Shown: positions 13,542 through 26,499 of the stretch, piece after piece
Numbering within the stretch: position 1 is the first letter of the stretch
Layout of the letters: each line of letters begins with the position of its first letter
DNA from: Solobacterium sp.
GTDB lineage: Bacteria; Bacillota_I; Bacilli_A; Erysipelotrichales; Erysipelotrichaceae
NCBI GenBank assembly: GCA_017510405.1
Contig: JAFWNG010000028.1
Coordinates: 62,001 to 126,000 of the forward strand
Direction of reading: 5' to 3'
Length of the DNA: 64,000 nt
The notes under the pieces: model-generated
Databases searched by the model: none
Told to the model about the DNA's origin: nothing
What the model saw: the letters and a program-made list of their open reading frames with translations, nothing else
Translations under genes and position numbers: made by a program

Positions 13542-14345
13542 ATGGAACATACAATAATCATTGCGGTTTCCGGCAAAGGAGGCGTCGGGAAAACGTCCGT
13601 TTCTGCGGCTTTCGTACGTCTTCTTACAGAATATCATCCGGGAGCCCGCATACTGGCTATTGATGCCGATCCCGCGATCGGCCTGTCCACGGCACTCGGC
13701 GTGGAAGTAACAGAAACACTGGATGATATCCGGAAAACGATCATCACACGAGTAGAAAACGGCGCCCCCAAAGCAGCCATAGAAATGCTGAATGAAGCGC
13801 GTTTCCGCATCTTTGACACCATGGTCGAAAACCGGACTTTTTCATTTCTTGCGATCGGCCGCCCCGAAGCGGCAGGCTGCTACTGCAAGGTCAATGCCTA
13901 TCTGAAAGAAGTCATAAACATGCTTTCCGACGATTTTGACTATGTCGTCATCGACGGAGAAGCTGGAATTGAACAGATCAACCGGAGAGTCATGGAAAAG
14001 GTCACCCACCTGATCCTGGTCTCCGATCCGTCCCGCAAGGGAATCCAGGTGATCCGAACCATCAAGCACGTTGCCGATGAACTCGTCATGTATGAGAAAT
14101 GCGGCGCTGTTTTAAATCGTGTAACGGACCCGTTAATGGCAGAAAACGCGCACATAGAAGAAGCACTGAAAGAAGACGGAATCGAACTGCTCACAGTGAT
14201 CGGAGCGGATGACCAGCACGCCCGAAACGATATCCGGGGAGACAGTGTATTTCAACTGGACCGGAACTCTCCGGTAATGCGCGGTGCAGAAGAAGTATTG
14301 CGAAAAATGAAACTTATACCTGAAGGAGGAGGCGATAAAAGTTGA
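13542..14345 (+). CDS. CooC/AcsF-type nickel-insertion ATPase
   Basis: This is a 267-residue MinD/ParA-fold P-loop ATPase with a deviant Walker A (GKGGVGKT, residues 11-18) and a DADPA switch (41-45). What sets it apart from partition proteins is GRPEAAGCYCKVNAYLKE, with C113-x-C115, the dimer-interface CxC motif of CooC and AcsF. DYVVIDGEAGIEQINRRV and LILVSDPSRKGIQVI also match that group. In known systems CooC inserts nickel into CO dehydrogenase and AcsF into acetyl-CoA synthase, with ATP hydrolysis. It is the first gene of the operon and overlaps the next start by four bases. I infer that it loads nickel (or another metal) into a partner encoded downstream. Confidence 0.85.
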   Translation: MEHTIIIAVSGKGGVGKTSVSAAFVRLLTEYHPGARILAIDADPAIGLSTALGVEVTETLDDIRKTIITRVENGAPKAAIEMLNEARFRIFDTMVENRTFSFLAIGRPEAAGCYCKVNAYLKEVINMLSDDFDYVVIDGEAGIEQINRRVMEKVTHLILVSDPSRKGIQVIRTIKHVADELVMYEKCGAVLNRVTDPLMAENAHIEEALKEDGIELLTVIGADDQHARNDIRGDSVFQLDRNSPVMRGAEEVLRKMKLIPEGGGDKS

Positions 14346-15565
14346 GAGACCTGAAACATTTGATCTACTTTGAAAACCTGCTCGACAATGCCGATAACGA
14401 ACTTGTTGAGCAGGCAAAGCGTGAAGGGAAACTGGCGGTCGGATATACCTGTTATCACATTCCGGAAGTACTGCTGAATGTGGATAACTGCTTTTCGGTA
14501 AGACTCCGGGCGCCGCGTACCGGCTCCATCGATATAGCGACATACTACATGTCGAACTATACGTGTGAGTTTGCACGCTCGCTTGTAGAGCGCGGCATTG
14601 AAGGAGGCTACCAGTTCCTCGACGGACTGGCAGGTGTGGATGCCTGTTCCATGATGAACCGGTTCTATGAGCACTTCGAAATTCTCAAAATGAACGAAAA
14701 AGAGAATTTCTTCGTAACACATACGGATATGCCCTACAAAGTGGAAGACTATTCCGTCCGTTCGTATGTGAAACAGATGCGGATCCGTCTGCTGGATGTA
14801 ATGAGTGACAAACTCGGTGTGGATACCAGCGACGCAGCCATCCGCAAAGCGGTAGAAGAACACAATAAAGTCTGCCGCATTCTGACAGAGATCGGCGAAA
14901 TGCGCAAAGCAGACAATCCCGTGATCACCGGGTATGAGTACCATGTATTGAATCTGGTCAGCTATACATGTCCCAAATACCTGATCCTGCCGTATCTGGA
15001 AGAAACCCTGGAAGAACTGAAAACCAGACAGCCCGATCCCAAACCGGCATTCCGCGCAAGAGTCGCCATCGTCGGAAGTGAGATCGACGATCCGTCCCTG
15101 ACAAAACTGCTGGAAGACTGCGGCGCCCTGGTCGTTTCCGACCGGTACTGCTATGGCTCGACCCCCGGCCGTGAAGTAATCGAACTGAAAGACGACGAAG
15201 ACGCGCTGGAACAGATCTGCCGCTTCTACATGGAACACAGCGAATGTGCCCGCTATATCTCAGACGAAAAAGTACAGCAGCGGCGCACGACCGCCGACCG
15301 TCTCGCCCGCGAGTTCAAAGCTGACGGCATTATTTATGAACAGATGAAATTCTGCGATTTCTGGGGCTTCGAAAGAGCACTGGTATCGCACATCATGAGC
15401 GAAGAAATGGGCTGGCCGGTACTGTCAATCGACCGTCCGTACAACGCCCGTTCTTCCGGACAGCTCAGAACCCGGTTCCAGGCCTTCGTAGAATCCCTCG
15501 AGATCAAGAAGATCCATAAGGCTCAGGAAGAAAAGAACCGGACAGAAAAGGAGGCAGCTGTATGA
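14342..15565 (+). CDS. HgdB-like 2-hydroxyacyl-CoA dehydratase family subunit (copy 1)
   Basis: The protein has 407 residues and starts with TTG at 14342, chosen because AAGGAGGAGG lies just upstream; the start overlaps the CooC-like stop. It matches the HGD-D family: GYTCYHIPEVLL (C37), a cysteine at 50, MSNYTCEFARSLVERG (C75), DACSMMNRFYE (C102), then DCGALVVSDRYCYGS and the final QLRTRFQAFVES. C37, C50, C75 and C102 are kept in copy 2 (19093-20304), and several are the likely [4Fe-4S] ligands. Family members are the site where a super-reduced cluster acts on substrate. Whether this one uses a CoA thioester is unknown. It overlaps its HgdA-like partner by four bases. Confidence 0.88.
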   Translation: MRDLKHLIYFENLLDNADNELVEQAKREGKLAVGYTCYHIPEVLLNVDNCFSVRLRAPRTGSIDIATYYMSNYTCEFARSLVERGIEGGYQFLDGLAGVDACSMMNRFYEHFEILKMNEKENFFVTHTDMPYKVEDYSVRSYVKQMRIRLLDVMSDKLGVDTSDAAIRKAVEEHNKVCRILTEIGEMRKADNPVITGYEYHVLNLVSYTCPKYLILPYLEETLEELKTRQPDPKPAFRARVAIVGSEIDDPSLTKLLEDCGALVVSDRYCYGSTPGREVIELKDDEDALEQICRFYMEHSECARYISDEKVQQRRTTADRLAREFKADGIIYEQMKFCDFWGFERALVSHIMSEEMGWPVLSIDRPYNARSSGQLRTRFQAFVESLEIKKIHKAQEEKNRTEKEAAV

Positions 15566-17346
15566 CCCGTGTGAAATATCCGAATCCGTCCTTCTTCCGC
15601 GCTAAGAATAAGATGGACTGGAAAGCACAGGGAGAGAATCTGAAAGAAATCGGCGGAATCATCTTAGACATGACCAAAGAAGCCGACTGGAAAGGATTCT
15701 TTGCAAAACAGGGCAGAAACATCGCCAGTGACGTCAGCCGCGTCAAAGAAGAGATGAAAGAACTGGCTGCCATGAGCCACAAAGAGCGCATGGACATCCT
15801 GCTTCACGGCGAAAAGAAACTCGGCAGACTGTACCGCGCCGGCGACATGGCTACCGTACGCAGAGAATGGAGAGGCATCCGGGACACCGGCGTCGACTTC
15901 TACGAATGGCTCCGCATGTGGGGCATGCTGCTGGGTACATTCTCCAAAGACCTGGTACCCGCCCTGAACTCGACCTTCTACTATCGCTGGATGATCTCCT
16001 ATATGTGCTGCGTCGGCTTCATGGACAAAAACACGATGGGACAGAGAGGCAACGCCCTCAAGATGTCTCACGAAATGATCTACTGCATCTTCCGTTACGT
16101 TGCCGAAAACCTCGTATTCCTCAGCAAATGCGACCACAAAAACGGAAACAGCGATGAACTGAATAAGAAAACCGTCCTGTTCGATGAAATGACCATGGGT
16201 CAGATCATGGCAGGCTTCCCCAAACTGCTCGGCATCCCGTACCAGCTGATGCCGGTATTCCTTGTTTCAGAAATCGACCAGCTGACATGCATCCCGTATC
16301 TGGATGCCGTCGAAAGCTTCGGCCTTCCGGCTGACACATGCCCGGTACCGTCCAGCGAATGCGGCGCCCTGGTCGTTGATGCACTCCCGCACATGGGCTC
16401 GTGCTTTATCTCCAGCTCCATGCCGTGCGACGGATCCGTCATGGCATCGTCCTATGTATCCCGCAGATTCCCGGATCTGCCGACCTTCCATCTGACCTTC
16501 CCGGTACGCTACGACTACGAAGAAACTGTGGAAGACGCCGCGGAAGATGTCAAAGAATGCATTAAGTTCGTCGAACGCATCACCGGCGAAAAATGGGACT
16601 GGGACAATTACTTCACATGCATGAAACGGTTCAACGAAGAGACCGCCTATGAACTCGAGAAGTGGGAAGTCAACAAAACTGCCTATCCGCAGATCATCGG
16701 ACCGAGCTATGAACTGTTCCGCAAATGGAATTACGAAATGGACGGCGGCAGTGACCCGCGCGTGATCAAATCCTGCAAAAAGGTACAGAAACTCATGCTG
16801 GACGCCTATGAACGCAAAGAAGAAGCGTGGCCCGGCAAGATGAAATACCGTGCGATCGTATGGTCATGCCCGGCGCACTACTATGCAAACTTCACGAACT
16901 GGCTGGCAAACTGCTGGGGCGTTGATGTACTGGTAGAAATGGAAAGCCTCAACTTTACCAAACCGCTGGAAACCGAAGACAAAGAAGAAGCGCTGAAAGA
17001 CCTGTCCCGCCTCTATGAGCGGATGGTCATGCGTCGTCATACCAACGGCGGCTACCAGAACGTCGTAGACGAACTGTGGAGACAGTGCGAAGCCTGGAAT
17101 GTGGACATCATAATCATGTACCAGCACGTATCGTGCAAAAACATGTCGACACTGCAGGGAATACTGGATGAACAGGCAAGGGAAAAAGGATACCACATGA
17201 TCTGGATCGAACACGACCTGATGGATCCGCGTACCGTTTCCCGCAAGAGCATGCGTGCGAAAGTAAACGAATACATGCGTACGGTCATGAAAGCAGAACC
17301 GTGTGACGCATCGCTGCTGGACTTTGATGATGAGAATGCAATGTAA
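15562..17346 (+). CDS. HgdA-like 2-hydroxyacyl-CoA dehydratase family subunit (copy 1)
   Basis: This 594-residue protein is longer than classical HgdA (~475 residues) because of a ~130-residue N-terminal extension. Recognisable stretches are FVLVSEIDQL-like core helices, TCPVPSSECGALVVDALPHMGSC, SSSMPCDGS, MKYRAIVWSCPAHYYANFTNWLANCWGVDVLVEMES and the C-terminal MIWIEHDLMDPRTVS. The clustered cysteines can serve an iron-sulfur site. It forms a pair with the gene at 14342, whose stop it overlaps. The second pair at 19093-21922 has the same order and aligned motifs, so the pair was duplicated. Substrate unknown. Confidence 0.85.
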   Translation: MTRVKYPNPSFFRAKNKMDWKAQGENLKEIGGIILDMTKEADWKGFFAKQGRNIASDVSRVKEEMKELAAMSHKERMDILLHGEKKLGRLYRAGDMATVRREWRGIRDTGVDFYEWLRMWGMLLGTFSKDLVPALNSTFYYRWMISYMCCVGFMDKNTMGQRGNALKMSHEMIYCIFRYVAENLVFLSKCDHKNGNSDELNKKTVLFDEMTMGQIMAGFPKLLGIPYQLMPVFLVSEIDQLTCIPYLDAVESFGLPADTCPVPSSECGALVVDALPHMGSCFISSSMPCDGSVMASSYVSRRFPDLPTFHLTFPVRYDYEETVEDAAEDVKECIKFVERITGEKWDWDNYFTCMKRFNEETAYELEKWEVNKTAYPQIIGPSYELFRKWNYEMDGGSDPRVIKSCKKVQKLMLDAYERKEEAWPGKMKYRAIVWSCPAHYYANFTNWLANCWGVDVLVEMESLNFTKPLETEDKEEALKDLSRLYERMVMRRHTNGGYQNVVDELWRQCEAWNVDIIIMYQHVSCKNMSTLQGILDEQAREKGYHMIWIEHDLMDPRTVSRKSMRAKVNEYMRTVMKAEPCDASLLDFDDENAM

Positions 17347-17366
17347 ATAAAGGGAGAGAGAAAACA

Positions 17367-18161
17367 ATGAAATATTTTGGTGGATGTGACGTAGGAAGTA
17401 CTTATACAAAAGCAGTCATTCTGGATGAAAACGGCAAAATGGTCGCTGATACAACGATCAAATCAAAGATCAATTCGGCTGAGAGCGCAAAGATCGCCAT
17501 GGAAGAAGTCCTCGGCAAAGTCGGACTGAAGTCCTCCGAAGAACTGGATTACCTGATCGGTACCGGTTACGGAAGAAACAAAGTTCCGTTCGCAGATGAG
17601 AACATCTCCGAGATCTCCTGCCACGCAATGGGCGTACACGTTACCGATCCGAGCGTCAAGGCGATCATCGACATCGGCGGACAGGACGTCAAAGGCATCA
17701 GCGTCGACACCGACGGAACCGTAAAGAACTTCGCAATGAACGACAAATGCGCTGCCGGTACAGGACGTTTCTACGAAGCAATGGCCCGTTCCTTTGAAAT
17801 GAGCCTGCCCGAGTTCTCCAAACTGTCCCTGAGCGCAAAGAACGTCATTCCGATCACAGCACAGTGCACAGTATTCGCAGAAAGCGAAGTCATCACACTT
17901 GTCGGTGAAGGAAAACCGATGAACGAGATCGCAGCCGGCATCCAGATGGCAGTCGCAAAGAGATGCTTCGTCATGGCCAAAAAAGCAGGCGCTACCGATT
18001 CCATCACACTGACCGGCGGCTGCGCAAAGAACGATGGACTCAAGCAGGCCATCGAACATGTACTCAAACTGAAAGTCATCGATCTTCCGATCGATCCGCA
18101 GCTGATGGGAGCCCTTGGGGCAGCGGAATTCGCCCGCCAGAAGGGTCTTGCCCAGGCATAA
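17367..18161 (+). CDS. HgdC-type activator ATPase (BadF/BadG/BcrA/BcrD family)
   Basis: The protein has 264 residues and the acetate/sugar-kinase ATPase fold. GCDVGSTYTKAVILD is the phosphate-1 loop, IDIGGQDVKGI phosphate-2, and LTGGCAKNDGL the adenosine motif. NDKCAAGTGRF (C128) and ITAQCTVFAESEV (C167) are the two cysteines per monomer that bridge a [4Fe-4S] cluster between subunits in HgdC. ATP hydrolysis lowers the cluster potential and drives single electrons into the HgdAB-type partner. It is the only activator gene in the operon, so it probably serves both HgdB/HgdA-like pairs. Length and motif spacing are normal. Confidence 0.93.
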   Translation: MKYFGGCDVGSTYTKAVILDENGKMVADTTIKSKINSAESAKIAMEEVLGKVGLKSSEELDYLIGTGYGRNKVPFADENISEISCHAMGVHVTDPSVKAIIDIGGQDVKGISVDTDGTVKNFAMNDKCAAGTGRFYEAMARSFEMSLPEFSKLSLSAKNVIPITAQCTVFAESEVITLVGEGKPMNEIAAGIQMAVAKRCFVMAKKAGATDSITLTGGCAKNDGLKQAIEHVLKLKVIDLPIDPQLMGALGAAEFARQKGLAQA

Positions 18162-18173
18162 AGAGGTACCGCC

Positions 18174-18341
18174 ATGGAGAAATTCCTGAAAGTACTTAAA
18201 ATCCTTCTCATCATACTTGGATGGGTCACCGGCATCCTGTTTGTCGTCTACTTCTGGAACATCGACCAGAAAGTACTCGGATGGGCATATGTCCAGGTGA
18301 ATAAGATCTTTGACCGGAAAAAGACCGATATCAAATTCTGA
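18174..18341 (+). CDS. Small single-span membrane protein (copy 1)
   Basis: This is a 55-residue ORF starting MEKFLKVLKILLIILGWVTG and ending KTDIKF. It has a short basic N-terminus, one membrane span (about residues 7-27), then an aromatic WNIDQKVLGWAYVQVNKIFDRKK tail. The ATG follows AGAGG and lies 12 bases after the activator stop. The gene at 21924-22133 encodes a similar protein with the same plan and the shared W-x-[DI]-D-x-K-x-L ... K-x-x-x-[KR]-K layout. Each copy lies downstream of an HgdB/HgdA-like pair. I infer a membrane anchor or assembly subunit for the complex. No known family is recognised. Confidence 0.7.
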   Translation: MEKFLKVLKILLIILGWVTGILFVVYFWNIDQKVLGWAYVQVNKIFDRKKTDIKF

Positions 18342-18349
18342 GGAAGCCC

Positions 18350-19096
18350 ATGGAATTGTATCAGTCAGTAACAGAGCGTGTTCAGAAACTGCTGGAAGAC
18401 CATCCGGAGCGGAAAGAATACGCCTGCGATACGGAGAAATGCTGGGAAGAGACCGAGCGCTTCGAACTGGTCATGGGACGTGAAAGTGCATATGAACTTG
18501 GCGGATCCGGAAACGGATCTGCCAACTTCACTGTCGTAACATCGGGATCGGAGTTCTTTTCCGAAAGCAAAGTCATCGTTATCGGAAAAGACCTGCAGGA
18601 CATCCGCTCCGATACCCCGTATGCCCGCATCGTCGTCCTTGCCCTGGATCCCGAAAAGATCCCGGACGCAAATGACCGGAAAGGCAGCGAAGCCGTCTTC
18701 CGTCTTCTGCAGAAACTGGACTTTATCAAATACCATGTATTTGCAAAAGGCTATATGATCCGTACCTCGACCGAAAACTATCGCGAACAGGTACGCGTGC
18801 AGAAACAGGCACTGAAAAACGGAATATCGTTCGAAAAAGTAGGAAACACGTTCCTGAAGCACTATCTCGAAGCAGACGGCGTGCTCGCAGCGACCATCTT
18901 TTTCCTGAGCGATCCTTCCATCGACTACGAAGCACTGCGGAAAGACGCCGCAAAAGTGCATGATATTACAATGACATTCTCGAAAATACTGGAGGGAATG
19001 CCGACAGACTGCAGTATGTGCAGCCTGAAACCGATCTGTGATGAAGTCGAAGGCATGCGCGAGCTGCACTTCGGCAAAGGAGAGACACCCTCATGA
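18350..19096 (+). CDS. Free-standing protein resembling the central domain of acetyl-CoA synthase (CdhC/AcsB)
   Basis: The protein has 248 residues. YELGG (48-52), SKVIVIGKDLQDI (73-85), RVQKQALKNGISFEKVGNTFLKHYLE (149-174) and ATIFFLSDPSIDYEAL (181-196) follow, in order, the pattern I know from the central (A2) domain of acetyl-CoA synthase and CdhC: ELGG, a V-x-V-x-G-x-D-[IL]-x-[ED]-I strand, a GF-x-x-x-x-x-GE helix and a TDPE turn. The end has C221-x2-C224-x5-C230-DEVEGMRELHF, comparable in place to the GCTLCQSFAPTHVC segment. Two more cysteines lie at 26 and 31. The CODH-binding and A-cluster domains are absent. The gene overlaps the next start by four bases. A role in CoA or metal handling is inferred. 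Confidence 0.6.
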   Translation: MELYQSVTERVQKLLEDHPERKEYACDTEKCWEETERFELVMGRESAYELGGSGNGSANFTVVTSGSEFFSESKVIVIGKDLQDIRSDTPYARIVVLALDPEKIPDANDRKGSEAVFRLLQKLDFIKYHVFAKGYMIRTSTENYREQVRVQKQALKNGISFEKVGNTFLKHYLEADGVLAATIFFLSDPSIDYEALRKDAAKVHDITMTFSKILEGMPTDCSMCSLKPICDEVEGMRELHFGKGETPS

Positions 19097-20304
19097 AAGA
19101 CCTGAAACATCTCATTGAGATGGAAGATCTTCTGCAGCAGGCATATAACAAGCTGGTGAAAGAGGCACAGGAAGAAGGCCGCAAAGCGATCGGCTACACG
19201 TGCTACTTCATGCCGGAAGTCCTGCTCGACCTGGAAGGATGCTTCGGTGTAAGACTGCGCGCACCGAACTGCACGTCCCCGGTCATGGCGACATACTACA
19301 TGTCCGGACGTACATGCCACTATGGCAGAAGCCTCATGGAACGCGCCCTGGAAGGTGGATTCAACTTCCTCGATGCCCAGATGGCGACCGAAACATGTAC
19401 CGTCACATGCCGTTTCCAGGAACACCTGGGACGCATGGACATCATTCAGAACCCGAACTTCTTCGTGGAATTCACCGACATTCCATTCAAGAAGACCGAA
19501 AACTCCGTACTGCACTACCAGAAACAGCTGCAGGCACATGTTCTCGACAAACTTCATGAAAAATTCGGAATCGACGTCAGTGACGAAGCACTGATGCGGG
19601 CAATCGAACGTCATAACGAAGTCTGCCGTCTTGTGCGTGAGATCGGCGAATACCGGAAACTGGATGTCCCGACGATCACCGGCTATGAATTTGCTGTGAT
19701 CCAGCTCACCACCCTGACCTGCCCGAAAGATAAGATCCTGGGCATGCTCAGAGAGACCGCGGAAGAAATGAAAACAAGAAAGCCGGATCTCAAGCCGACA
19801 TGGAAAGTAAAAGTCTGTGTTGCCGGCGCAGAAAACGACCATCCGGACTTCATTAAGCTGATCGAAAGCTGCGGCGCCCTGGTCGTAGCCGACCGCTACT
19901 GCTACGGATCACTGCCGGGACGCGAGGAAATCGTTGTGGAAGAAGGCCAGACACCGCTCGAAGCCATCGCCCGCCACTATCTGAACACCAGCTGCTGTCC
20001 GCGGTTCATGCCGCAGGACATCATGCGCGGCAGAAAGAAATATCTTGCGGACATCTGCGCTGAGTACAAGGCAGACGGCCTGATCATAGAATCCAATAAA
20101 TTCTGTGAATACTGGAGCTACGAACGCACCATCGACGCCCTGGTCATCCCGCGTGACTTCGGCATTCCGACGTGTTCGATCGAAAAAGAGTACATCAACT
20201 CTGCTTCCGGACAGCTGCGCACCCGCTTCCAGGCATTTGTGGAAAGCGTGGAACTGAAGAAACTTCATGCGGAGAAAGGAAACGATCATGACGAAACCGA
20301 ATAA
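19093..20304 (+). CDS. HgdB-like 2-hydroxyacyl-CoA dehydratase family subunit (copy 2)
   Basis: This 403-residue paralogue of the gene at 14342 opens with the same MxDLKHLIxxEdLL segment. GYTCYFMPEVLLDLEGCFGVRLRAPNC, MSGRTCHYGRSLMERALEGG, TCTVTC, ESCGALVVADRYCYGSLPGREE and SASGQLRTRFQAFVES align to copy 1 throughout. C37, C50, C75 and C102 are shared; C60 and C106 are extra. The ATG overlaps the stop of the acetyl-CoA-synthase-like gene, so translation is coupled. It pairs with the gene at 20288. Confidence 0.88.
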   Translation: MKDLKHLIEMEDLLQQAYNKLVKEAQEEGRKAIGYTCYFMPEVLLDLEGCFGVRLRAPNCTSPVMATYYMSGRTCHYGRSLMERALEGGFNFLDAQMATETCTVTCRFQEHLGRMDIIQNPNFFVEFTDIPFKKTENSVLHYQKQLQAHVLDKLHEKFGIDVSDEALMRAIERHNEVCRLVREIGEYRKLDVPTITGYEFAVIQLTTLTCPKDKILGMLRETAEEMKTRKPDLKPTWKVKVCVAGAENDHPDFIKLIESCGALVVADRYCYGSLPGREEIVVEEGQTPLEAIARHYLNTSCCPRFMPQDIMRGRKKYLADICAEYKADGLIIESNKFCEYWSYERTIDALVIPRDFGIPTCSIEKEYINSASGQLRTRFQAFVESVELKKLHAEKGNDHDETE

Positions 20305-21922
20305 GACCGGAAAAACCCTCCTGACCAGAACAAAGAAGCTGGCTTCGGATTTCTGGAACGGTAAGCCGCACGAAGAACGGCGGCTGGGTGATCTTTACAT
20401 TGATAAAACAGGCCTGTACAAACACCGTGAATGGCGCGGCGTAAAAGACACGATGTACTACTTCAACAACATCTGGCTTTACAACTATGCCCACATGATC
20501 GGCGACATGGTGAAGTACAGCGGCCCGAAGGGACCCATGCTCTTCCTCAAAGGCGTATGGAGATACCGCTGGCTCGGACAGACCTATCTGCCTGTTATGC
20601 ACTGGTTTGACAGAGGCCTTGAAGGAATGCGCGGCGAAGGACTGCGGGCTAGCGCGTGGCATTACCGTGCCATGGTTTCGGAAACGATCCGCCAGTTCAT
20701 GCGCATGCTGGAAGCCGACCAGAAGACCGGCGGTTCCAAAGAGATCTACGACAAGACCATTGCCCACGACGAGACCGTATGGGGCGGCATCTTCTATCCG
20801 TGGCGCGACCGCATGGACGATGTCCCGCTGCAGATGATCCCGTACTTCGTCACATGCCATGTTAACAACCACGTTGTTCTGAACTACATTGACGCAGCCC
20901 AGTCCATCGGACTTCCGGGCGACCCGTGTCCGATGTGCCAGGCAGAAGCCGGCATCTTCCTGCAGGATGACGTGCCGGAGTACTATCCGATCGTCATCAC
21001 ATCCAACGAAGCATGCGACGGTTCGGTAGGCACCTCCGTCCTGCAGGACTGGATGATGAACCGTCCGCTGTTTGCCATGCCGCAGCCGATGCAGTTCGAC
21101 GATCCGCTCGTACAGGAACACTGCGCCCGCGAGATCGAAGAATGCTGGAAGTTCATTGAAGAACAGACCGGTGAGCCGTTCAGCTGGAATGAACTGAAGA
21201 AACATCTGGAACAGCAGAACCAGCTCCAGGAATTCGAATGGGAGAAATGGGAAGTAGCCGCCAACACTGACTACTATCCGATCAACGGCGTTGCTCAGGC
21301 ACTCTATCGCATCTACCAGTCACAGGACGGTGACCGTGAGATCTGGCACGAGGTCGATGCCCGCGTCAAAAAAATCCTGGAAAAGTGCGTGGAAAAGAAG
21401 ATCAACAGCTTCCCGAAGACACGTCACAGAATGATCGCATGGAGCTGTGCACCGCTGTATTACTCCCACTGGTGCACATGGGCATATAACTGCTGGGGCC
21501 TCAACTGCATCATCAACATGGACTCCCTGATGTTCAACATGACCATCCGTACCGACAGCTACGAAAACACACTGCAGGACATGGCGCTTTACCATGAGTG
21601 GGCACCAATGCGGCGTATGGCAGTCGGCGGTATGCATCATATCTTTGAACTGTGGGAATACATGGAAAAATTCCACTGCGACATGGTCATGATGTATGAC
21701 CAGCTCCAGTGCAAAGGCATGCAGGGCGTACACGGACTCTTCGAAGACGAATTCCGTGCCCGCAACATCCATGCCATCTGGATGCCGCATGCACTGCCGG
21801 ACAAACGCACCGTCAGCCGCAGCGAGATCCGCGGCATCATCAACGACTATATGACCACCATCATGCATGAGGAACCCCTGGATCCGACACTGCTTGAATT
21901 TGACGACTCGGAGGGCTGGTAA
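20288..21922 (+). CDS. HgdA-like 2-hydroxyacyl-CoA dehydratase family subunit (copy 2)
   Basis: The ATG at 20288 is preferred to the in-frame ATG at 20267 because AGAAAGGA lies 7 bases before it; the gene overlaps its partner by 17 bases. The 544-residue protein aligns with copy 1 (15562-17346): EWRGVKDTMYYFNN, DPCPMCQAEAG, SNEACDGSVGTS, HRMIAWSCAPLYYSHWCTWAYNCWGLN, and the ending AIWMPHALPDKRTVSRSEIRGIINDYMTTIMHEEPLDPTLLEFDD. Copy 1 carries ~50 more residues, mostly N-terminal. Some copy-1 cysteines differ (ECGALVVDAL against EAGIFLQDDV), so the two pairs may not do the same job. Confidence 0.85.
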   Translation: MTKPNKTGKTLLTRTKKLASDFWNGKPHEERRLGDLYIDKTGLYKHREWRGVKDTMYYFNNIWLYNYAHMIGDMVKYSGPKGPMLFLKGVWRYRWLGQTYLPVMHWFDRGLEGMRGEGLRASAWHYRAMVSETIRQFMRMLEADQKTGGSKEIYDKTIAHDETVWGGIFYPWRDRMDDVPLQMIPYFVTCHVNNHVVLNYIDAAQSIGLPGDPCPMCQAEAGIFLQDDVPEYYPIVITSNEACDGSVGTSVLQDWMMNRPLFAMPQPMQFDDPLVQEHCAREIEECWKFIEEQTGEPFSWNELKKHLEQQNQLQEFEWEKWEVAANTDYYPINGVAQALYRIYQSQDGDREIWHEVDARVKKILEKCVEKKINSFPKTRHRMIAWSCAPLYYSHWCTWAYNCWGLNCIINMDSLMFNMTIRTDSYENTLQDMALYHEWAPMRRMAVGGMHHIFELWEYMEKFHCDMVMMYDQLQCKGMQGVHGLFEDEFRARNIHAIWMPHALPDKRTVSRSEIRGIINDYMTTIMHEEPLDPTLLEFDDSEGW

Positions 21923-21923
21923 T

Positions 21924-22133
21924 ATGAAGTCCGTATGGAAAACACTCGGGATCGTATTCGGAATACTGACCGGACTGTACATTGTCCTGTTCCTGGTCTT
22001 CTGGTTCGATCTGGACGGAAAGGCACTGTTCTACGGCGTGGAACCGTTTCTGAAAAATCACTATGACAAGATGAAACGGAAAGACCCGCTGGATGTGGAA
22101 TACCGCACTGACACCGAAAACTACGAATACTGA
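21924..22133 (+). CDS. Small single-span membrane protein (copy 2)
   Basis: This 69-residue protein starts MKSVWKTLGIVFGILTG. It has one span (about residues 7-27) followed by FWFDLDGKALFYGVEPFLKNHYDKMKRK and an acidic tail ending in ENYEY. The layout matches the 55-residue protein at 18174. The start is set 1 base after the upstream stop, with GGAGG 10 bases before it; an earlier in-frame ATG at 21867 lies inside the upstream gene. It follows the second HgdB/HgdA-like pair directly. Probable membrane partner of that pair; no family known to me. Confidence 0.72.
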   Translation: MKSVWKTLGIVFGILTGLYIVLFLVFWFDLDGKALFYGVEPFLKNHYDKMKRKDPLDVEYRTDTENYEY

Positions 22134-22147
22134 AAGAAGGCAGCTTC

Positions 22148-24004
22148 TTGAACGAACAGAAAGAATACCGGTTTCAGACTGAGACCGCAAAGCTTCTGCA
22201 GATGGTGATCCATTCGGTCTACACGAAAAAGGAGATCTTTCTGCGGGAACTCATCAGTAACGCTTCGGATGCCCTGGACCGCCGGTATGCCCTCGCTCTG
22301 GAACAGCCGGAAAAGAACCTGGGACCGCTGCAGCGGGAAGCCTACAGCATCAATCTCCTTCTGCAGAAAAACAAGCGTCTGCTGTGGATCCGTGACAACG
22401 GCATCGGTATGGACAGCGATGATCTGTACCGGTGCCTCGGTACCATCGCACACAGCGGCACAGGTGAAGAGGAAACGGACGAAGAACGCATCGGCCAGTT
22501 CGGCATCGGCTTCTACTCCCTCTTCATGGCTGCCGACCATGTACGCGTGGTCAGCCGCAAAGCCGGTACGAGCCAGGCATATGCATTTGAAAGCAGCGGG
22601 ATCGATTCCTATACGATCACGGAATCGAAGCGGGACACAGTCGGCACCGATATCATCCTGCATATCCGCGAAGACGACGGCAATGATACTTACAACCGGT
22701 ATCTGCGGGAATATACACTGTATAAACTCGTAAAGCAGTATTCCGATTACATCCGCTGGCCGATCCTTCTGTACATGCCCGTCCCGGTCCCCGGAAAAAA
22801 CGGCGAACCGGAAGAGCGGTGGGGATGGCAGAGACTGAACTCCATGGTTCCCCTGTGGCGCCGCAAGGCCGACAGTGTGACCGAAAAGGAATACAATGCC
22901 TTCTGGCTGGAACAGTATGCGAAAGACCTGGAGCCGGCCGCCAAAGACAGGGAAGTCTTTGCAAAACCGCTTAAAGTCCTGCATCTTCATGTCGAAGGCC
23001 GCACGGAATTCCGTGCCCTGCTCTACATACCTGCATGCGCGTGGCGCACGTACGATACCGAGCGTGACATGAAAGGACTTCAGCTGTACTCCGCCGGAGT
23101 CCGGATCAAAGAGAGGGAACCGGCTGTACTGCCGGAGGAATTCTCCTTTGTACAGGGGGCTGTCGACTGCAGTGACCTGCCGCTGAATCTTTCCCGGGAA
23201 ACCCTGCAGGCACAGGACAGTCTGAAAGCCATCCGCAGCGTACTGGCAAAGAAGATCACAGAAGCACTGCAGGACGTCCTGCAGGAAGACCGCAGCCGGT
23301 ACGAACGCTTCTATCAGGACTTCGGAAAATCCCTGAAGCTGTCCGCCATGGAATGTGAAGGAAAGCAGCGTGAACGGCTCAGCAGCCTGCTGTTATTTGC
23401 ATCGACCGGCGGAACGCTCACACTGGATGAATACATTCAGAAAGAACCATCGCAGATCCTGTTCGGAGCGGCAGAGAACGCAGACGCACTGAAAAAACTG
23501 CCCGAAGCGGAACGCCCGCTGCAGGATGGCAGAACGATCCTGTGTCTGTCAGACCTGACCGACCGGCTTATACCGGAAATGCTGGAAACATACCGCGGCG
23601 TACCGTTTGTCAGTATCAATTCTTCTTCCGCTTGCGAAACCAGTACACGCGGCTCAGACCTGTGTACATTTGCGGAAGAAGTACTGAAGAACGAGAATAC
23701 TGCAGTTCGTATGACCGACCGTCTGGTAACCGGACCGGTCGTACTGACAACAGAAAGCGGACTGTCTGCCGATCTGGAAGCACAGATGGCAGAAACCGAT
23801 TCCCGGTACGTATCCCGCTATGTGCTGGAACTCAATCCGGAACACAGATCTGTACAGATCCTCGACAAAGTCCGGATCGCCGATCCGGCACGGGCAGAAA
23901 AATACGTGCGTATTCTGTATACGCAGGCATGTCTGACCGCCGGGCTGAAGATTCCTGATCTGACAGAATATACTGCTCTGCTGGTCAGTCTGTTTGAAGA
24001 ATAG
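22148..24004 (+). CDS. htpG: HtpG, Hsp90-family chaperone
   Basis: The protein has 618 residues, the usual HtpG length, and starts with TTG at 22148 after AAGAAGG. All N-domain ATP motifs are present: ELISNASDALD, IRDNGIGMDSDDL, GTIAHSGTGE and GQFGIGFYSLFMAADHV. The middle domain has the LPLNLSRETLQ motif with the catalytic arginine. It is a general cytoplasmic ATP-driven chaperone. Its place between metalloenzyme subunits and nickel-chaperone genes, 14 bases after the small membrane protein gene, is unusual and suggests that it helps fold or mature the operon's complex. It may instead be the only htpG in the genome and simply be co-transcribed. Confidence 0.93.
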   Translation: MNEQKEYRFQTETAKLLQMVIHSVYTKKEIFLRELISNASDALDRRYALALEQPEKNLGPLQREAYSINLLLQKNKRLLWIRDNGIGMDSDDLYRCLGTIAHSGTGEEETDEERIGQFGIGFYSLFMAADHVRVVSRKAGTSQAYAFESSGIDSYTITESKRDTVGTDIILHIREDDGNDTYNRYLREYTLYKLVKQYSDYIRWPILLYMPVPVPGKNGEPEERWGWQRLNSMVPLWRRKADSVTEKEYNAFWLEQYAKDLEPAAKDREVFAKPLKVLHLHVEGRTEFRALLYIPACAWRTYDTERDMKGLQLYSAGVRIKEREPAVLPEEFSFVQGAVDCSDLPLNLSRETLQAQDSLKAIRSVLAKKITEALQDVLQEDRSRYERFYQDFGKSLKLSAMECEGKQRERLSSLLLFASTGGTLTLDEYIQKEPSQILFGAAENADALKKLPEAERPLQDGRTILCLSDLTDRLIPEMLETYRGVPFVSINSSSACETSTRGSDLCTFAEEVLKNENTAVRMTDRLVTGPVVLTTESGLSADLEAQMAETDSRYVSRYVLELNPEHRSVQILDKVRIADPARAEKYVRILYTQACLTAGLKIPDLTEYTALLVSLFEE

Positions 24005-24017
24005 GAGATATACGACT

Positions 24018-24242
24018 ATGCATGAACATCATCACCACCATCATGACCATGAAGTAAACAGCAGTGATGAAGCTGCTGCAATGCTTGCCTATATGGTGCA
24101 TCACAACGAACATCACATCGAAGAACTGGCAGACATTGCCGCAAAGCTTCCGGAAGAAGTCCGCGCTAAGATCACTGAAGCTGCAGAGATCATGAAAAAA
24201 GGCAACGAGCTTCTTCGTGAAGCAGCCGAGCAGGTGAAATGA
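24018..24242 (+). CDS. Histidine-rich small protein, likely metal (nickel) chaperone or store
   Basis: The protein has 74 residues. Residues 1-12 are MHEHHHHHHDHE. A second histidine group, HHNEHH, lies at 28-33, giving 12 histidines in the first 33 residues. The rest is a helical, charged ~40-residue segment (IEELADIAAKLPEEVRAKITEAAEIMKKGNELLREAAEQVK) that could form a coiled coil or helical hairpin. AGGAG precedes the ATG; the in-frame ATG at 23994 lies inside htpG. Histidine-rich tails bind nickel in CooJ, HypB and SlyD. With a CooC-like ATPase and a CooT-like protein in the same operon, a nickel store analogous to CooJ is the simplest reading, though it is not a CooJ homologue by sequence. 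Confidence 0.7.
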   Translation: MHEHHHHHHDHEVNSSDEAAAMLAYMVHHNEHHIEELADIAAKLPEEVRAKITEAAEIMKKGNELLREAAEQVK

Positions 24243-24243
24243 T

Positions 24244-24447
24244 ATGTGCCTGTCCGATGTATACGGCATTCGCGGCAGTGAAAAGGAACTGCTGTTCTCA
24301 AACGCTGCCAGCGTCACCCAGAACGGAGATACCCTGGTATTCACAAACATCCTGGGTGTGCCGTTCGAGACAAAAGGAACGATCCGGTCGGTAGATCTTC
24401 TGGAGAATGTGATCCTGATCGACCGGAAAGAGGAAGAGAGGAAATAA
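24244..24447 (+). CDS. CooT-like nickel-binding protein
   Basis: The protein has 67 residues and opens MCLSDVYGIRGSEKELLFSNAASVTQNGDTLVFTNILGVPFETKGTIRSVDLLENVILIDR. This is the pattern of the CooT family: an N-terminal Met-Cys, six or seven short beta strands, and a D-[IL]-[LF]-G turn before G-x-I-x-x-[IV]-D-L. In Rhodospirillum rubrum CooT, Cys2 of the dimer binds one Ni(II), and the gene sits in the CO dehydrogenase nickel-loading cluster. Here it starts 1 base after the histidine-rich gene. It supports nickel use by this operon. Confidence 0.75.
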   Translation: MCLSDVYGIRGSEKELLFSNAASVTQNGDTLVFTNILGVPFETKGTIRSVDLLENVILIDRKEEERK

Positions 24448-26499
24448 ATGGAAAAAGTATACGAACCCTTATTTACCCCCTGGAAGATCGGTAACTGTGA
24501 GATCAAGAACAGGATCGTTCTGACATCGATGGGCGGTACGGACCTGTTCGGATGGATGGAACCGAACCATTTTGACAAAGCCGGTGCTGAATTTATCTAC
24601 AATGTCGCAAAGAATAACGCCGGCCTTGTTCTGCCGGGCTGCCAGCCGGTATACAATCCGATGCGCGGCGAATGGCTGTACAAGAATAAAAAGATGTACG
24701 AGGACCTGGCACGGTGGATGCCGAAATTCCATGCGACAGGTGCCAAACTGTTCATTCAGCTGACTGCCGGCTTCGGCAGAAGCTTCACCATTTCGAAGAT
24801 GATGGAAGACCTCTATACCAATCCGGTACTGCGGAAAGTATCCAAACCGTTCATGGATCTGGATAAGATCACCGCTACGGCTTCCCCGTCTCCCAACCGG
24901 TGGAGCGACAAGGTGCCTTCCCGTGAAATGACCGTCGAAGAGATCCGCGAATTCATCGACGCATTTGCCAAAACAGCCGTCCTGCTGAAAGAAGCAGGTG
25001 TTGACGGTGTTGAGATCCACGCTGTACATGAAGGCTATCTGCTTGACCAGTTCACCCTGAAGTATGTCAACAAGCGTACCGACGAATACGGCGGATCGTT
25101 CGAGAACCGCTATCGTTTCGCAGTCGAGATCGTAAAGGCGATCAAGGAAGCCTGCGGTCAGGACTTCCCGGTTTCCCTGCGCTACAGTGTCGTTTCCAAG
25201 ACCAAGGGATTCCGCGAAGGCGCTGTTCCTGGTGAGGTATACACCGAAGTCGGCAGAGACATGGAAGAGTCTGAGAAGGCAGCGAAGTATCTGCAGGATG
25301 CCGGCTATGACATGCTCAACTGCGACAACGGTACATACGATGCATGGTACTGGGCACATCCGCCGGTATATATGCCGGAAAACTGCAACCTGGAAGACGT
25401 CGAGCATATCCGCAAATTCGTGGATATCCCGGTCGTATGCGCCGGCCGCATGGATCCGAAAGTTGCGGCGGAATCGATCGAAAAGGGCGGCATTGACGGT
25501 GCCGGCTTCGCCCGCCAGTTCCTTGCGGATACCGAATGGGTCACCAAGCTCATGAAGGGTAAGGAAGAAGACATCCGTCCGTGCATTCTCTGTCACAACG
25601 GCTGCTTCAACATGTGCCACTACAAAGGCGTCCCGAATGACCAGGATCTGATGGATTCCCTGCATCTGGCTAGATGCGCGGTCAACGCCGAAACCATGCA
25701 GACAAACAAGCACTACATCAAACCGGCAAAAGAACCAAAGAAAGTCGTCATTATCGGCGGCGGTATCGGCGGTATGGAAGCTGCGCGCGTACTGAAGCTG
25801 CGCGGTCATACACCGGTGATCTACGAACAGAGCGATAAGCTCGGCGGCACATTCATCCCGGCATCTGCGGAATCCTACAAAGGAAAGCTGCGTGACCTGC
25901 TTGCGTGGTACCGCAGACAGATGGAAGAACTCGGCATCGAAGTTCATCTCAATACAAAGATCGGAAACGTCGGCGAATTCGCGAAGTATCCGGTCATTGT
26001 CGCGACCGGTTCCACACCGCGCGTACTGCGCTTCGTTCCGGGACACGAAAAGATGATCGAAGCCTGCGAATTCCTGAACGGCGCCAAAGTCGGCCAGCGT
26101 GTTGCTGTGATCGGCGGCGGTCTGACCGGTTCCGAGATCGCATATGAACTGGCATTACAGGGCAAGACGCCGATCATCGTTGAGATGAAAGACGACCTTG
26201 TCAGCCAGACCGGTGTCTGCCTCGCAAACAGTTCCTATCTCAGAGAATGGTTTGCCTGGAAACATGTGGAAGTCCATCTTGAAACAACACTGAAGGAAGT
26301 ACAGGACGGAAAGATCATCTGTAAGACAAAAGACGGTGAGATCACCATCCCGTGTGATTCCGTCATCTCTTCCGCCGGCTATATGCCTGCACCGCTTGCG
26401 GCGAAGGGCAAGAACGTCTACCTGGTAGGCGACTGCAACAAAGTCGGCAACCTGCGTTCTGTTATCTGGGGTGCTTACGAAACAGCAATGAAGATCTGA
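24448..26499 (+). CDS. Iron-sulfur FMN/FAD enoate-reductase-like oxidoreductase
   Basis: The protein has 683 residues and the three-part plan of 2-enoate reductase, 2,4-dienoyl-CoA reductase (FadH) and BaiCD/BaiH. Residues ~1-370 form an old-yellow-enzyme TIM barrel (VDGVEIHAVHEGYLLDQFTLKYVNKRTDEYGGS). Then comes the [4Fe-4S] cysteine cluster RPCILCHNGCFNMCHYKG, followed by a dinucleotide-binding flavin domain (VVIIGGGIGGMEAARVL) and a second Rossmann motif (VAVIGGGLTGSEIAYELAL). It would reduce an activated C=C bond with NAD(P)H. Its ATG follows the CooT-like stop with no gap and GAGAGG upstream, so it belongs to the operon and could act on the product of the HGD-type step. A paralogue lies at 53353-55323. 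Confidence 0.88.
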   Translation: MEKVYEPLFTPWKIGNCEIKNRIVLTSMGGTDLFGWMEPNHFDKAGAEFIYNVAKNNAGLVLPGCQPVYNPMRGEWLYKNKKMYEDLARWMPKFHATGAKLFIQLTAGFGRSFTISKMMEDLYTNPVLRKVSKPFMDLDKITATASPSPNRWSDKVPSREMTVEEIREFIDAFAKTAVLLKEAGVDGVEIHAVHEGYLLDQFTLKYVNKRTDEYGGSFENRYRFAVEIVKAIKEACGQDFPVSLRYSVVSKTKGFREGAVPGEVYTEVGRDMEESEKAAKYLQDAGYDMLNCDNGTYDAWYWAHPPVYMPENCNLEDVEHIRKFVDIPVVCAGRMDPKVAAESIEKGGIDGAGFARQFLADTEWVTKLMKGKEEDIRPCILCHNGCFNMCHYKGVPNDQDLMDSLHLARCAVNAETMQTNKHYIKPAKEPKKVVIIGGGIGGMEAARVLKLRGHTPVIYEQSDKLGGTFIPASAESYKGKLRDLLAWYRRQMEELGIEVHLNTKIGNVGEFAKYPVIVATGSTPRVLRFVPGHEKMIEACEFLNGAKVGQRVAVIGGGLTGSEIAYELALQGKTPIIVEMKDDLVSQTGVCLANSSYLREWFAWKHVEVHLETTLKEVQDGKIICKTKDGEITIPCDSVISSAGYMPAPLAAKGKNVYLVGDCNKVGNLRSVIWGAYETAMKI

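Follow-up and report, generated by a model that had tools for sequence, protein, structure and literature searches.

A small histidine-rich protein (HIS) and a CooT family protein, encoded side by side towards the end of an array of 13 genes, probably form a nickel-handling unit which would work with the array's own CooC family ATPase to supply an acceptor made by the array, judging from sequence and gene content in a 64,000-nucleotide stretch of Solobacterium sp. DNA (the window). A role of the two proteins in nickel supply appears well supported by their genomic context. Together they represent a variation on the known CooC/CooT/CooJ theme, and what is new is their attachment to an array of HGD subunits and an ACS fragment in a genome with no detectable CODH. 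Full-text searches of an open-access library found no paper combining CooC/CooT/HIS, HGD and ACS-fragment components.

Both genes lie on the forward strand where the sequence-only reading had placed them, HIS at 24018..24242 and CooT at 24244..24447, 1 base apart; the next gene, OYE, starts at 24448 and abuts the CooT stop, leaving gaps of 1 and 0 bases around CooT. HIS has 74 residues, an ATG start, no cysteine and 12 histidines, all within residues 2-33 (binomial probability of at least 12 histidines in 33 residues at 2.5% histidine, ~1e-11). An alternative TTG start at 23994 would add 8 residues, but HIS orthologues begin MSEHH and the ATG is therefore the correct start. No Pfam or NCBIfam family matched HIS above its cut-off, and the candidate assignments to DUF948 and urease gamma were rejected as matches that fall below theirs. 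The neighbouring ORF, of 67 residues, begins MCLS 1 base past the HIS stop and matches Pfam PF10133 at 51.3 bits (cut-off 27) over residues 1-59, which bears out its earlier description as a CooT-like protein with an N-terminal Met-Cys. Cys2, the nickel ligand of R. rubrum CooT, is present, and Met-Cys is found in 58/58 CooT of related loci; the sequence alignment to the solved CooT structure 6fan is weak (E 0.096). This is the only CooT in the window's genome. Four related genomes (G530, G548, G594 and G536) keep HIS and CooT in the same order and the same frame, and the order of the entire array is kept in the first two and in the available pieces of the other two. Judged by similarity, the organism stands close to rumen Erysipelotrichaceae/Solobacterium MAGs.

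The predicted model of HIS is a high-confidence two-helix hairpin (residues 16-41 and 46-73) preceded by a loose histidine tail (residues 1-15), with the motif YMxxHNxHHxEEL in the hairpin core. A fold search returned generic helical hairpins only, none at E<=0.001. Histidines number between 3 and 41 per ORF across the family, whose members may lack the tail (L090). Recurrent positions in the relatives are H29, N30 (or S), H33 and an acidic residue; the scan was selected on YM..H and N-x-HH-x-EEL, and invariance there stems partly from this selection, though H-N-x2-H is still kept in six relatives reached by other routes. Five relatives, some adjoining CbiM or ACS genes, carry HWIEHN[RK]SH, where the window HIS reads YMx2Hx3H. 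HWx2Hx3H is the putative nickel motif at the N-terminus of R. rubrum CooJ. As a lead only, a correspondence between the two would make HIS a relative of CooJ with its histidine tail moved to the opposite end. The histidine-rich C-terminal domain that is a trait of CooJ is absent from HIS, its C-terminal helix being devoid of histidine, and no CooJ chain was among the matches of PDB searches with the HIS profile and with an HW-type relative. Whereas the 74-residue window HIS has its histidines at the N-terminus, those of R. rubrum CooJ, a protein of 12.6 kDa, are C-terminal (PMC6006190).

The array consists of 13 colinear genes on the forward strand (13542-26499). It opens with the CooC family ATPase (13542..14345), followed by HGD1 (14342..15565; PF06050, 303 bits), an HGD-D subunit whose nearest model is the double-cubane reductase NF040772 (E 2.8e-40; 138.5 bits, below the equivalog cut-off of 350), and by the long HGD-D subunit HGD2 (15562..17346; PF06050, 126 bits). 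Then come ACT, an ATP-dependent activase of the BcrAD/BadFG/HgdC type (17367..18161; PF01869, 191 bits; TIGR00241, 220 bits), sm1, a protein of 55 residues with one hydrophobic segment and a conserved place beside ACT and the CdhC-like gene (18174..18341), and the CdhC-like gene itself (ORF 18350, 18350..19096). The second half holds the HGD-D subunit HGD3 (19093..20304; PF06050, 282 bits), the long HGD-D subunit HGD4 (20267..21922; PF06050, 97 bits), sm2, another small protein with one hydrophobic segment, which is conserved after HGD4 and whose true start probably lies inside the ORF (21867..22133), an HtpG/HSP90 paralogue (22148..24004; NF003555, 468 bits), HIS, CooT and, lastly, OYE, a BaiCD/2-enoate-reductase-like flavo-iron-sulfur oxidoreductase (24448..26499; PF00724, 182 bits, and PF07992; below the BaiCD cut-off). 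None of the HGD subunits reaches the cut-off of any named member, and no corrinoid protein was found in the array. With its two pairs of HGD-D subunits and its BcrAD/HgdC activase, the array resembles the double-cubane, 2-hydroxyacyl-CoA dehydratase and benzoyl-CoA reductase systems, to which it adds CooC, CooT, HIS and the CdhC-like protein.

Several features of these neighbours are worth recording in their own right. Proteins of the sm1 and sm2 type come after HGD/activase genes in almost every cluster and are possible membrane anchors. The HSP90/HtpG paralogue diverges much faster than the neighbouring HGD4 (49-66% versus 88-95% identity in the same genomes). A second HGD pair, accompanied by a small membrane-type protein, is found in the same genome at L033 (G000:C39, 8339-11372); its subunits share 54% identity with HGD1 and 38% with HGD2. 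ORF 18350, the most telling neighbour of all, had been absent from the sequence-only reading, and many gut Bacillota conserve it alongside HGD/activase genes.

ORF 18350 (248 residues) is a previously unannotated homologue of the ACS middle domain. Although its score against Pfam CdhC (PF03598) is just below the cut-off (20.7 bits versus 24), that family is matched by 10/16 of its relatives at E<=0.01, and a PDB search with a profile built from these 16 relatives brings up ACS chains (E 6.5e-7). Structure prediction gave an AlphaFold2 model with a pLDDT of 86.7, for which Foldseek returned ACS alone below E 0.001 (best 2.7e-9), while a structural aligner superposed it on residues 316-495 of Mt ACS with Z 16.7 and 2.5 A over 172 residues, the next unrelated row having Z 3.6. 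The likeness to ACS (AcsB/CdhC) is limited to this middle domain: the N-terminal domain is missing, the protein ends before the A-cluster domain, and it lacks the CGC with which ACS binds nickel, leaving the array without any recognisable set of known nickel ligands. Its tail carries the motif C221-x2-C224-x5-C230-x9-H240, invariant in 27/27 sequences, and the ACS of L058 has C-x2-C-x8-C-x9-C just past its middle domain; this likeness in spacing is suggestive only. We also considered selenocysteine in the CdhC-like proteins of G1124 and G1251 and rejected it, the in-frame stops being the ordinary stop after ...LHLKKKN.

The array's CooC has C. hydrogenoformans CooC (3kje) as its best PDB match (E 3.3e-17), shows the MinD-class deviant Walker A motif GKGGVGKT and carries C113-x-C115, which is invariant in 44/44 related arrays and corresponds to Cys112/Cys114 of C. 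hydrogenoformans CooC-1 (PMC6006190). In a tree of 51 CooC sequences, all 32 from an HGD context, including that of the window, form one group with the CooC of five stand-alone loci (100/98). CooC2 and the CooC1 of CODH/ACS operons (a group of its own, 97/90) fall outside it, the CooC1 of these acetogen operons being its sister. The trio of the sequence-only reading (CooC, CooT and a histidine-rich protein) is thus real. In an assembly that is 96.6% complete, which makes absences likely and not certain, no CODH was found, the sole Prismane/CODH match being a contig-end fragment that reads as a hybrid-cluster protein, and neither the catalytic C-terminal domain of ACS (ACS_CODH_B_C) nor a [NiFe]-hydrogenase was found. 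Given that no CODH was found in this genome, we assign the array protein to the CooC family without calling it a CODH maturase. The genome also has a CbiM-type Ni/Co uptake gene; CbiM can serve as a cobalt transporter too.

A profile scan of 84,980 species genomes found 123 HIS relatives, the best 80 of which were kept; such a scan is biased towards the query's own kind, and additional sampling was hence done from the CooT side. Among the best 80 of the 123, 40 have CooT directly downstream of HIS and 11 have it at some other place in the surrounding sequence, which in 27 contains no CooT. HGD/activase genes are in reach at 54/80 of these loci, CODH/ACS genes at 8, CooC only at 6 and none of these at 12, and in the CODH context CooT is adjacent to HIS in 8/8 (again among the best 80 of the 123). 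The clearest such locus, L058 from Cuneatibacter sp., reads HIS-CooT-MetF-CooC-CooS-CooC-AcsB-AcsD-AcsC, with CooS and AcsB confirmed by Pfam. Wood-Ljungdahl operons of this kind in Lachnospiraceae and Oscillospiraceae (L058, L115) share with the window the HIS and CooT families and their order, as well as a related CooC (34% identity), but their client is CODH/ACS. At the stand-alone CooC-HIS-CooT loci the CooC falls in the HGD group of the tree, and a CdhC-like gene stands elsewhere in 4/4 genomes searched; no such gene was found in the three acetogen genomes searched (L058, L115 and L108). These findings uphold the earlier proposal of a two-gene module that belongs with CooC, given its relatives in CODH/ACS operons and the CxC and deviant Walker A motifs of the array's CooC.

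Among 295 Lachnospirales genomes sampled from the CooT side, 11 CooT scored above the cut-off, and HIS lies directly upstream of 10/11; six of these ten pairs stand in Wood-Ljungdahl surroundings and four in genomes with a CdhC-like gene (in this sample, the Acs gene near L257 is visible in L236). CooT and CdhC-like genes overlap in 4 Lachnospirales genomes versus 0.5 expected (Fisher p 9e-4), a result that lends weak support, one of the four genomes being the sample centre and two being near-copies. CooT is lacking in 10/14 of the CdhC-like genomes of this sample, so that the pair is dispensable for the CdhC-like system as such. Nor is the HIS-CooT pair specific to the HGD operon. Its presence in many genomes without the rest of that operon had been named beforehand as a point against nickel supply, and this is borne out in part; these other homes are nickel-enzyme operons, however, and the nickel reading is thereby strengthened rather than refuted.

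The most serious rival to dedicated supply, although an improbable one, is that HIS and CooT serve general buffering, storage or detoxification of nickel (or cobalt), with no particular client in the array and an incidental place in the operon. Several features of the wider families fit this explanation. HIS occurs without CooT or nickel genes nearby at three loci (L083, L119 and L081), and the histidine content spreads over 3 to 41 per ORF. In 398 genomes of the wider phylum, CooT scored above the cut-off in 118, and the surroundings of 80 sampled CooT include CbiM in 31, DUF3842 in 21, CODH/ACS in 7 and HypA/HypB in 3, so that CooT of the wider family is mostly found beside Ni/Co uptake genes and DUF3842. 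The same surroundings also count in favour of a nickel-handling unit. Against buffering stand the repeated siting of the pair by CooC and CODH/ACS or CdhC-like/HGD genes and its tight coupling in the window.

Some observations on these families stand apart from that question. CooT is mostly of the MCE type in the wider-phylum sample and of the MCL type in 58/58 of the scanned HIS-linked loci. MCE-type CooT lies beside CbiM-type transport genes and/or DUF3842 at six loci across Bacillota, which suggests that DUF3842 is part of nickel handling. Within the class and phylum to which the window belongs, HIS scans gave almost no matches. In three proteins of 163-180 residues (L049:10215-10757, L079:3053-3592 and L072:10191-10682), a His-rich linker joins CooT to a further domain. 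A GenBank record labelled 'Bacteriophage sp.' (MT836106.1, our L026) holds HGD3, HGD4, HIS and CooT, the last nearly identical to that of Firmicutes bacterium CAG:176; the record is a bacterial contig, and the phage link was dropped.

Dedicated supply to the array also has to account for related clusters that do without the pair. Co-conservation with HGD-type genes, anticipated by the sequence-only reading, is strong with respect to HGD and CdhC-like genes but not obligatory, and it is the clusters lacking HGD3 and HGD4 that lack the pair. Lachnospirales clusters with HGD3/HGD4 occur in genomes that also encode HIS and CooT (L270, L274 and L275, the last with the pair on another contig, L252), and the reduced clusters CooC-HGD1-HGD2-ACT-small-CdhC-like are without the pair. 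In five pair-less clusters, apparently of one lineage, HypA is found ~3 kb past the CdhC-like gene. Gene-by-gene reading of two of the five (L264 and L268, the latter with a HypA of 102 bits) shows an IsrA-like flavo-Fe-S oxidoreductase between the CdhC-like gene and HypA. HypA is known to travel with IsrA homologues (PMC10134865), and because it accompanies IsrA-like proteins anyway, its presence in the pair-less clusters is consistent with nickel and no independent proof of it. The putative isoprene reductase (isr) operon of Acetobacterium wieringae (PMC10134865) is like the array in joining nickel chaperones to an anaerobic reductase without a [NiFe]-hydrogenase, and the sister clusters share with it the IsrA-like protein and HypA that follow their CdhC-like gene; unlike the array, it relies on HypA/HypB, not on CooC/CooT/HIS, and has no HGD subunits.

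A module tuned to another metal, zinc or cobalt, whose kinship of CooC and CooT to nickel proteins is historical, seems to us a doubtful explanation, and one somewhat less probable than buffering. Histidine tails bind Zn, Co and Ni alike, the array has no ligand set diagnostic of nickel, and C. hydrogenoformans CooC was crystallised with Zn (PMC6006190); on the other side, the close relatives of the pair sit in CODH/ACS operons, the array is free of corrinoid proteins, and HypA lies near the sister clusters. Equally doubtful is the proposal that CooC, HIS and CooT help to build a double-cubane-type iron-sulfur cofactor of the HGD subunits in an enzyme that ends up nickel-free, for despite four HGD subunits with many invariant cysteines, the kinship of CooC to the NifH/MinD class and an HSP90 paralogue in the array, R. 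rubrum CooT binds nickel (PMC6006190) and HIS has no cysteine. Characterised HGD-type enzymes, moreover, are not known to require CooC or CooT.

Nickel delivery to an acceptor made by the array is hence the reading we carry forward, and R. rubrum offers its closest template. As there, a CooC with GKGGVGKT and CxC, a Met-Cys CooT and a small histidine-rich protein are co-encoded; unlike there, CODH is missing, and the clients in the array would be HGD subunits, the activase and the CdhC-like protein. R. rubrum CooT is a dimer that binds one Ni(II) through Cys2 with a Kd of 9 nM (PMC6006190), and CooT and CooJ-like genes in CODH operons have been described already, in a study with 68 CooJ candidates (PMC13056359). 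The histidine tail of HIS could capture and buffer Ni(II), with one ion held at the helical H29/H33/E36 core; a CooT dimer with its two Cys2 thiolates would take Ni(II) from HIS at higher affinity; and CooC, driven by ATP, would use its C113-x-C115 interface to insert the nickel into the acceptor. The likeliest acceptor would be an Fe-S site of the CdhC-like protein, with its invariant C-C-C-H, or of an HGD subunit, for which the HgdC-type activase might then provide ATP-driven low-potential electrons. The assignments to families and the gene contexts are seen directly in the sequences; we infer the metal's identity, the order of transfer and the acceptor alike. Mutants of R. rubrum in CooC, CooT or CooJ are rescued by nickel, and cells without CooT or CooJ need added nickel for growth on CO (PMC6006190), and by analogy HIS and CooT would matter most under nickel scarcity. 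A need arising mostly when nickel is scarce fits the absence of the pair from some related clusters that keep CooC.

Taken further, and here we are tentative, the array may encode a nickel enzyme of an undescribed type: an ATP-driven HGD-type reductase with a Ni cluster in the CdhC-like protein and/or an HGD subunit, matured by CooC, HIS and CooT and reduced by the HgdC-type activase. Nickel enzymes are few. A full nickel-insertion set linked with HGD-type, ATP-driven reductases and a fragment of ACS, in a genome where CODH, the catalytic domain of ACS and [NiFe]-hydrogenase all escaped detection, hints at a nickel enzyme that has not been assayed, and the genes of this candidate are carried by many rumen and gut Bacillota. 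If true, the enzyme would fall outside the nickel enzyme classes known so far while having its maturation set in common with CODH/ACS, and it would establish an evolutionary link between ACS and the HGD/double-cubane world.
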